Part shown: piece after piece, positions 1-8,684 of the stretch
How the letters are laid out: every line of letters begins with the position of its first letter
How positions within the stretch are numbered: the stretch's first letter is position 1
Origin: a virus
Direction: 5' to 3' (one strand)
IMG/VR virus record: IMGVR_UViG_3300025872_000257
Coordinates: 1 to 26,670 of that record
DNA: 26,670 nucleotides
Position numbers and translations under genes: made by a program
The notes under the pieces: model-generated
Seen by the model: only the letters and a program-made list of their open reading frames with translations
Databases searched by the model: none
What the model was told of the DNA's origin: nothing

Positions 1-211
1 TGTTGGACACGGCCACGGTCAGGCCGATGCGGAGTCCACGTGCCGCGGCGACGTAGCACTTGTCGTGGCACTCGCGCAGGCGAGCAGGGTCGAACTTGTA
101 ATCTCCCTGCTCATCGACCATGTACTGGTCGGCCTCACACACAAGTTGTGCCAACTTGTGTGCCAACGTGGTCTTACCCGAACCGGGCAGACCCCGGATG
201 ATGTACAACAT
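1..211 (-). CDS. P-loop polynucleotide-kinase-like protein, 3' end outside window
   Basis: Only the first 70 codons are present; the gene runs off the left edge. The product starts MLYIIRGLPGSGKTT, with a Walker A motif (GLPGSGKT) at residues 7-14. It continues with an ADQY...GDYKFDP...ECH pattern. This arrangement is typical of the AAA/P-loop kinases related to NEDD4BP2 and T4 polynucleotide kinase, which phages use for nucleic-acid end repair or nucleotide metabolism. The ATG overlaps the upstream stop codon by one base (TAATG) and is preceded by GGGAG, so it is translationally coupled to the upstream gene. The family is recognised from the N-terminus only; the substrate cannot be deduced. 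Confidence 0.8.
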   Translation of the reverse strand, partial: MLYIIRGLPGSGKTTLAHKLAQLVCEADQYMVDEQGDYKFDPARLRECHDKCYVAAARGLRIGLTVAVSN

Positions 212-432
212 TACTCTCCCTTCATCCATGGTTTATCTTTATTCGACCTTAGTTTCTTTGCATAAGCAAAGATGGCGTTGTCCGACCACTCTGGGTCACC
301 CAACGCCCTCCCACGGTCGTAGGTCTCCGTGAACGTCACGTAGACGGCAGAGAGGGGCACTCCCCACTTCTCTGCTGTCATGGTGACATACGCCCGCCCA
401 AGGCGGGCAGCCGTGTCAGTCGTTCCAGTCAC
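211..432 (-). CDS. Small hypothetical early protein
   Basis: About 73 residues, ending KDKPWMKGE. I do not recognise a family. The product is mixed charged/aromatic with no transmembrane segment and no clear motif. The open frame reaches position 492, but that would overlap the upstream gene by 77 bp. The GTG at 432, preceded by GGATGGG at about 6 nt and overlapping the upstream gene by only 17 bp, is the preferred start; an ATG at 453 is an alternative. The stop overlaps the start of the kinase gene, so it belongs to the same operon. It is accepted as real because of this tight packing and because the frame is uninterrupted between two coupled genes. Confidence 0.6.
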   Translation of the reverse strand: MTGTTDTAARLGRAYVTMTAEKWGVPLSAVYVTFTETYDRGRALGDPEWSDNAIFAYAKKLRSNKDKPWMKGE

Positions 433-1802: not shown

Positions 1803-1846
1803 GATGCTCCCCTTTCTGGCCCATGAGGGCCGGTTGTAACGGTTAC
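1803..1846 (-). promoter_or_regulatory. Leader element (copy 2)
   Basis: On the minus strand GTAACCGTTAC (1836-1846) is followed by a perfect hairpin, GGCCC-TCAT-GGGCC (1818-1831), then the AGAAAGGGGAG ribosome-binding site and ATG at 1802. The 11-bp palindrome is identical to that of copy 1, and the hairpin matches copy 3 (GCCC-TTAT-GGGC). It overlaps the last codon of the gene at 1843-2064. Confidence 0.55.
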
Positions 1847-2064
1847 CGGTTGATAACCGTGATGGTGTACTCGCCGTTGTCCTCGCCGTAGACGATGACC
1901 TCGCGGCGGTAGTTGACGAGGTCAAGCAACTTGCCCTCCCTCCGTCCCCAGACGGGCAGTCGGGCGGTGATGCCCTGCGACTTCAGCCAGCGCTCCACCT
2001 CGTCCTTGCTGTACGGGCCGAGGTCGGTGGCCATGCCACCGTAGATGTGGTGGTACTGCTTCAC
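1843..2064 (-). CDS. Small hypothetical early protein
   Basis: 73 residues from a GTG start, containing PYSKDEVERWLKSQGI and VIVYGEDNGEYTITVINR. It is soluble, with an alternating helix then beta-hairpin appearance; no family is recognised. The frame opens at an ATG at 2085, but that start lacks a ribosome-binding site. GTG at 2064 has GGAAAGGAA 6 nt upstream and is preferred. It is the first gene of the leftward operon after the 2065-2519 control region, so any repressor or activator bound there would control the whole early block. Confidence 0.65.
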   Translation of the reverse strand: MKQYHHIYGGMATDLGPYSKDEVERWLKSQGITARLPVWGRREGKLLDLVNYRREVIVYGEDNGEYTITVINR

Positions 2065-2118
2065 TTGCACTTCCTTTCCGCCCATAAGGGCTGACGTAAT
2101 GCTTACACGGTATAAGCA
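2065..2118 (-). promoter_or_regulatory. Leader element (copy 3)
   Basis: The inverted repeat TGCTTA-N7-TAAGCA (2100-2118) is followed, in the direction of minus-strand transcription, by hairpin GCCC-TTAT-GGGC (2080-2091) and then GGAAAGGAA and the GTG start at 2064. The hairpin and order of parts match copies 1 and 2; the outer palindrome differs in sequence but holds the same place. Confidence 0.5.
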
Positions 2119-2360: not shown

Positions 2361-2454
2361 TGTGACATATGTCACATAGGCCCACGCCTAGGCAGCGGTG
2401 TGACAAATGTCACACGAGCAGCGGGGGGACACTACCCGTGTGACATTTGTCACA
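2361..2454. promoter_or_regulatory. Three CRP/GlxR-type operator palindromes
   Basis: Three perfect or near-perfect 16-bp palindromes: TGTGACATATGTCACA (2361-2376), TGTGACAAATGTCACA (2399-2414) and TGTGACATTTGTCACA (2439-2454). Each fits TGTGA-N6-TCACA, the consensus bound by CRP-family regulators (CRP; GlxR in corynebacteria; Rv3676-type in mycobacteria). Spacing is 38 and 40 bp. Only the central bases vary. A phage repressor with the same taste, such as the HTH protein encoded next door, is the alternative ligand. Confidence 0.75.
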
Positions 2455-2474
2455 CCGCCCCCGTAGGGGCGGTG
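2453..2474 (-). terminator. GC-rich hairpin after the HTH gene
   Basis: CACCGCCCC-CGTA-GGGGCGGTG forms a perfect 9-bp stem 46 nt beyond the stop of the gene at 2520. There is no T-tract on the minus strand, so termination would be weak or Rho-assisted. It shares two bases with the third operator. Confidence 0.4.
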
Positions 2475-3330: not shown

Positions 3331-3438
3331 AATAGCCCTATTCTGCAATAAGAAACCGATTAAGAGGCTATAAAACTGAACATTCGTACTGTTTCATAGC
3401 CCCATTCTGTTATCACTTGCTACCCCATAAGAGGCTAT
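3331..3438. repeat. Four related ATAGCC half-sites in two inverted pairs
   Basis: Pair 1: AATAGCCCTATTCTG (3331-3345) with the inverse TAAGAGGCTAT (3361-3371). Pair 2: CATAGCCCCATTCTG (3395-3409) with TAAGAGGCTAT (3428-3438). Direct-repeat spacing is 64-67 bp. The surrounding sequence is AT-rich relative to the flanks. It sits between divergent genes, so operator or iteron roles both fit. Confidence 0.65.
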
Positions 3439-8544: not shown

Positions 8545-8684
8545 TGACCCCTTCAAAAGTACGTCTTCTCGTCCGCGCCGTCGTTGTGTGTGCAACGGCC
8601 TTCGGTCTGAAACTCAGCGCAGACCAAGTAGCAGGTCTCTACCTGCTCACCGAGGCGCTGGTGCAAGTCTTCGTCAAAGACTGA
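8544..8684 (+). CDS. Short holin-like protein
   Basis: 46 residues: MTPSKVRLLVRAVVVCATAF, then SADQVAGLYLLTEALVQVFVKD. This is the compact actinophage pattern of a first hydrophobic helix, then 'LSADQVA' and a second helix (LTEALVQVFV), widely annotated as a short holin or lysis-associated protein. The ATG overlaps the previous stop (TGATG). It is the last gene of the accessory/lysis operon, just ahead of a strong terminator. The endolysin itself is encoded far away at 17317. Confidence 0.7.
   Translation: MTPSKVRLLVRAVVVCATAFGLKLSADQVAGLYLLTEALVQVFVKD

Follow-up and report, generated by a model that had tools for sequence, protein, structure and literature searches.

In actinobacteria, the sites of CRP/GlxR-type regulators (GlxR of C. 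glutamicum, CRPMt, and Crp of S. coelicolor) are 16-bp palindromes of the form TGTGA-N6-TCACA with an A/T-rich centre, placed in non-coding regulatory DNA. The binding site of GlxR is TGTGANNTANNTCACA (PMC4254451), and the strong consensus for S. coelicolor Crp, GTG(N)6GNCAC, includes a G11/C6 pair (PMC10033298). An initial annotation had assigned three palindromes in a 26,670-base viral record (hereafter the window, i.e., the whole stretch of DNA analysed) to this class, and they do fit both published consensus sequences, being perfect matches to TGTGA-N6-TCACA with a tolerated centre; they also lie in non-coding DNA and carry the G11/C6 pair found in S. coelicolor Crp sites. However, unlike the actinobacterial sites, these palindromes reside in viral genomes, cluster in groups of three to seven with spacing down to 14–17 bp, and keep C6/G11 nearly invariant, and their binding by CRP is a prediction.

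Repeated regulatory sites are also known from L5-type phages, where stoperators serve as operators of the phage repressor and vary in specificity between related phages. The viral array resembles such operators in its repeated sites, its regulatory position, and a specificity that differs from relative to relative, but it consists of perfect palindromes in one locus, with no conserved repressor gene adjoining. A third comparison is with the DnaA-box clusters of replication origins, as TTATCCACA boxes likewise occur in the non-coding array stretch of several relatives. In contrast to origin clusters, however, the window has no such boxes, and some viruses carry several modules in front of small genes.

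For the use of a host CRP by a virus, the precedent is phage T1, in which host cAMP-CRP controls viral promoters (PMC6737242, available portion). T1 would read the metabolic state of its host via host CRP at its own promoters, as proposed here, but it is an E. coli phage, its regulation runs via the pir, dam, and recE promoters, and neither a tandem palindrome array nor DnaA boxes are described in that portion (PMC6737242).

The palindrome array and its locus

The window covers part of the genome of a BRock/LuckySocke-like virus. Its terminase shares 46–47% identity with the terminases of LuckySocke and BRock, Streptomyces phages with genomes of 112–116 kb, and ~80–86% with the terminases found on many IMG/VR contigs. 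No near-identical phage, plasmid, or array DNA was found in public records. A freshwater origin of the sample is a reading that we infer from known relatives, rather than the output of a tool.

The three sites, none assigned to a strand, are TGTGACATATGTCACA at 2361–2376 (site 1), TGTGACAAATGTCACA at 2399–2414 (site 2), and TGTGACATTTGTCACA at 2439–2454 (site 3), with start-to-start spacings of 38 and then 40 bp. The annotation was thus correct as to their positions, spacing, and perfect match to TGTGA-N6-TCACA. Sites 2 and 3 extend to 18-bp palindromes (GTGTGACAWWTGTCACAC; 2398–2415 and 2438–2455). These are the only perfect TGTGA-N6-TCACA sequences in the 26.7-kb window. With Markov models trained on the window, the expected number of sites per window is 0.047 (order 1), 0.020 (order 2), and 0.013 (order 4), i.e., 0.01–0.05, so that three sites within 94 bp are not a product of chance. 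The motif as annotated is, however, too loose. The symmetry continues inside the N6 (C6...G11), and the motif is therefore better written as TGTGACAWWTGTCACA.

The array lies in a non-coding, unstranded regulatory stretch delimited by the ORF list (2086–2519), which also contains, on the minus strand near 2305–2313, the sequence TGATAGCAA, common to relatives among shared 9-mers. To the right is P0001 (2520–3179, minus strand), an ORF of 219 amino acids whose product is largely helical and may have a helix-turn-helix around residues 52–81. A palindrome scan identified a G+C-rich hairpin, ACCGCCCC-CGTA-GGGGCGGT, at 2454–2473 (minus strand), ~47 nt beyond the stop of P0001 and without a T run, which is a probable terminator. 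To the left, a run of small ORFs begins with the one at 1843–2085 (minus strand, ORF list) and ends with the 5′-terminal part of an ATPase-like ORF at 2–229 (minus strand; phrog_2071, E 3.5e-15). Reading from right to left, the order is the stop of P0001 (2520), the hairpin, sites 3, 2, and 1, and the small ORFs from 2085 on; therefore, the array follows the HTH-like ORF and precedes the small genes that run leftward, and is not ahead of the HTH gene. The run from 2085 leftward is presumed to be a regulated transcription unit. No recognizable sigma-70-type promoter was found in the window.

Other repeated elements occur in the window. Palindromes at 1370–1384 and 1834–1846 (TTGTAACGGTTACAA plus a second TTGTAACGGTTAC copy) and TGCTTACACGGTATAAGCA at 2100–2118 each stand ahead of small leftward ORFs. 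An AATAGCCCTAT / ATAGGGCTATT element in a divergent non-coding stretch (3331–3345), common to the window and G001, G006, G009, G010, and G036 (loci L232, L239, L375, and L405), is possibly a late promoter.

Conservation in relatives and spread across viral lineages

The array in the window is real and conserved. Arrays occupy the matching position in L048, G001, G009, G010, and G013, and are degenerate in G004 and G006. In L048, the corresponding stretch holds four sites, and the counterpart of the ATPase-like ORF (60% identical by tblastn) lies 2.3 kb from the array, so that array and ATPase ORF are syntenic between the two. G001 (99 kb, terminase 85% identical) has five sites in ~600 bp, and three to seven sites each are present in G009, G010, G013, G034, G035, G036, G047, and G048. 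The most widely shared 9-mer, AATGTCACA, occurs in 10 of 11 non-coding array stretches. Conservation in related phages, on which the initial annotation had staked its reading, thus holds for most relatives examined, with no site in the cultured relative LuckySocke.

A profile built from 46 sites of 12 related or array-bearing viruses, with positions 6–11 left unconstrained, gave the consensus TGTGAC-RWWY-GTCACA, with 97% of half-sites (89/92) having C at position 6. This profile, too, agrees with the GlxR site and with the S. coelicolor Crp consensus. In a Nocardia replicon, the only actinobacterial replicon tested that is enriched in CRP sites (9 vs. 0), C6/G11 is not favoured; Rhodococcus plasmids contain almost no sites and are uninformative as a host proxy.

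The arrays are also found beyond these relatives. We scanned IMG/VR for two copies of TGTGAC-N4-GTCACA separated by 0–30 bp, using as a control the reversed motif, which has the same composition and palindromy, and obtained 23 stretches as compared to none for the control. Likewise, 14 array-bearing records contain 3–19 sites each (≤1 mismatch), and the reversed control none. Among the carriers are unrelated virus lineages. One of them has a gene for WhiB (Pfam E 9e-17), a protein family known from actinobacteria and their phages. There is no gene common to all array neighbourhoods. The array-bearing viruses are probably viruses of actinobacteria. In genome bins, related terminases occur in only two MAGs, labelled Chloroflexi and Armatimonadota; neither is taken as a host, since the motif is absent from both genomes.

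The 107-kb viral record L378 (G046) has 19 TGTGAC-N4-GTCACA-like sites (≤1 mismatch) in one region, many of them followed a few bp on by sequence resembling GTCGTTGCTTGCC, as though belonging to a promoter. A 47-kb viral record (L376 and L377, G050) carries about ten dispersed, near-invariant copies of TGTGACCRYGGTCACA, often followed by CCCC, in an organization unlike that of the arrays.

Candidate binding proteins and alternative readings

No virus-encoded CRP was detected: a cNMP-binding domain was absent from 22 viral records, whereas the same search was positive in 11 of 14 control genomes. The PF13545 matches in relatives are winged-helix replication-like proteins that lack a cNMP domain, and the iterated palindromes within their genes differ in sequence from the array, so these proteins were rejected as its binders. 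A ParB/parS system was likewise rejected (none of 19 records above the ParB_N cut-off, the window being a fragment only), as was a lysogeny circuit, since 19 records yielded no tyrosine integrase.

As an alternative to a host regulator, it had been suggested that the adjacent HTH protein has evolved the same site. This is disfavoured by the finding that P0001 is a singleton, with no homologue detectable in a set of 24,059 ORFs or across 43 records (tblastn, phmmer, Pfam, and PHROGs), yet the sites persist in relatives. Even the gene at the same locus of L048 has no detectable similarity to it. Its AlphaFold2 model is all-helical, at low confidence (mean pLDDT 58). P0001 is probably not the binder of the array.

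Since no viral cNMP protein was found in the 22 records and relatives do not conserve the neighbouring ORF, a Crp/GlxR-type protein of the host is the best candidate and the simplest reading, which we put forward with moderate confidence. In the corresponding reading, for and against which we weigh about equally, the array would be a conserved cis-regulatory element of a large actinophage-like virus that comprises three CRP-type dimer sites bound by host Crp/GlxR. A host cAMP-receptor regulator of this type would bind the predicted sites within 2086–2519 and regulate how the small genes running leftward are transcribed, so that their expression would follow the cAMP or nutrient state of the host; titration of the host regulator may be a side effect. 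Both the transcriptional nature of this effect in the virus of the window and its direction are what we infer.

Two features of related arrays are not readily explained if the binder is an invariant host CRP. One is spacing. A CRP dimer has a footprint of >20 bp, and neighbouring sites 14–19 bp apart, which are common in related arrays, could therefore not both be filled by CRP dimers; the spacings in the window, by comparison, are compatible with simultaneous CRP occupancy. The other is the exchange of palindromes at a fixed locus. In the close relatives G007 and L424 (on the contig of L150), TGTTGCAWWTGCAACA palindromes replace TGTGACAWWTGTCACA at the matching locus: three copies of TTGTTGCAAATGCAACAA are present in L424, with the window's 38-bp spacing between the first and the second, and two copies in G007, one of them slightly shorter. 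Relative to the motif of the window, TTGTTGCAAATGCAACAA is changed at positions 4–5 of each half (GA to TG) and nowhere else, the A-W-W-T centre being kept. The TGTTGCAWWTGCAACA palindromes of sister viruses lie at 797–960 in L424 and at 8611–8733 in L405. Further, G008 and G011 carry CCTCTACTAGAGG-type repeats at the matching locus, 38 bp apart in G008; the palindrome types among BRock-like relatives include TGTGAC, TGTTGC, and CTCTACTAG. Specificity therefore shifts faster than that of CRP normally does, and either the hosts differ in the regulator that they use, or a diversifying viral protein does the binding.

Because of the 14–19 bp spacing and the TGTTGCAWWTGCAACA palindromes in two close relatives, we tentatively retain, at clearly lower probability than the host regulator, the possibility that the sites are operators of a fast-evolving, virus-encoded dimeric regulator that is CRP-like by convergence and diversifies in specificity among relatives. 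In favour of this, sister viruses keep the architecture with another palindrome, much as the operators of phage repressors diversify, the tight spacing suits a smaller protein, and the sites in the window and G001 are confined to the array locus, save for single sites elsewhere in G001. However, a repressor–operator pair should show a conserved DNA-binding gene with the array, whereas P0001 is unique, without a homologue even at the same locus of L048, and the neighbourhoods of the array-bearing lineages share no gene, although a more distant gene may encode such a protein. Moreover, the same specificity would have to have arisen in each of the unrelated lineages.

It is rather unlikely that the stretch is instead a replication origin or a hub for host DnaA, in which the palindromes would be accessory or initiator sites and not transcriptional control elements. 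DnaA boxes (TTATCCACA) do cluster amid or beside the palindromes in G001, G006, G009, G010, G034, G035, G044, G045, and G047, with 2 to 15 boxes per array region in many relatives and few elsewhere in those genomes. However, the window lacks DnaA boxes altogether, a single near-match is present in L048, and winged-helix replication-protein-like ORFs with iterated palindromes of their own (GTGTCAN4TGACAC in G001; GGGTCAN4TGACCC in G004 and G012) are better origin candidates. The presence of these other palindromes makes a replication role of the array less likely, and the origin is likely inside the winged-helix gene. Such ORFs with in-frame iterated palindromes were seen in L223, L222, L224, L226, and L228 (G001, G009, G010, G012, and G004, respectively). 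Also at odds with an origin, several modules occur in G045, and every one precedes a small gene that has a −10-like hexamer.

The distance between palindrome centre and −10-like hexamer (TANNNT) is exactly 34.0 bp in five cases in G045, a geometry that, by analogy, comes near to class II CRP activation; no −10 was found at that distance in the window. Modules repeat ahead of successive small ORFs at 120–1790 of L379 (G045) and 18060–19660 of L381 (G044), in the order of DnaA boxes, CGAAC-N4-GTTCG and TGTGAC-N4-GTCACA alternating at 16-bp steps, and the −10-like hexamer. The CGAAC-N4-GTTCG boxes look like the LexA/SOS boxes of Gram-positive bacteria.

Finally, it is improbable that the sites belong to a different host regulator whose operator is similar, e.g., the redox regulator Rex or a protein of the TetR or GntR type: Rex sites (operator TTGTGAA-N4-TTCACAA) match in length and outer bases, and proteins of other families that bind 16-bp palindromes could be packed at 16–17 bp, but Rex is excluded because it needs A at position 6, where 89 of 92 half-sites have C, and we know of no actinobacterial regulator that fits TGTGAC-N4-GTCACA better than Crp.

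Host control proteins and the biology of these viruses

That the arrays often stand beside DnaA sites suggests that these viruses tap the control proteins of their hosts; our literature search found no paper on titration of host DnaA by a phage. More speculatively, and with considerable doubt, many actinophages might hold composite arrays of host-regulator sites at a fixed locus (Crp and DnaA, in some cases LexA-type) that read or sequester the nutrient, replication, and damage control of the host, with the palindrome type swapping between sister viruses along with the host and, through it, the regulator.

The fixed locus with its swapped palindromes provides a natural experiment that separates a host binder from a viral one. 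If a viral protein binds, a rapidly switching pair of palindrome and regulator awaits discovery. If host Crp/GlxR binds, viral expression would be coupled to host cAMP, which would carry the precedent of T1 and CRP over to actinobacterial viruses, and the composite arrays would offer a ready set of promoters for testing the sensing of host state or titration.
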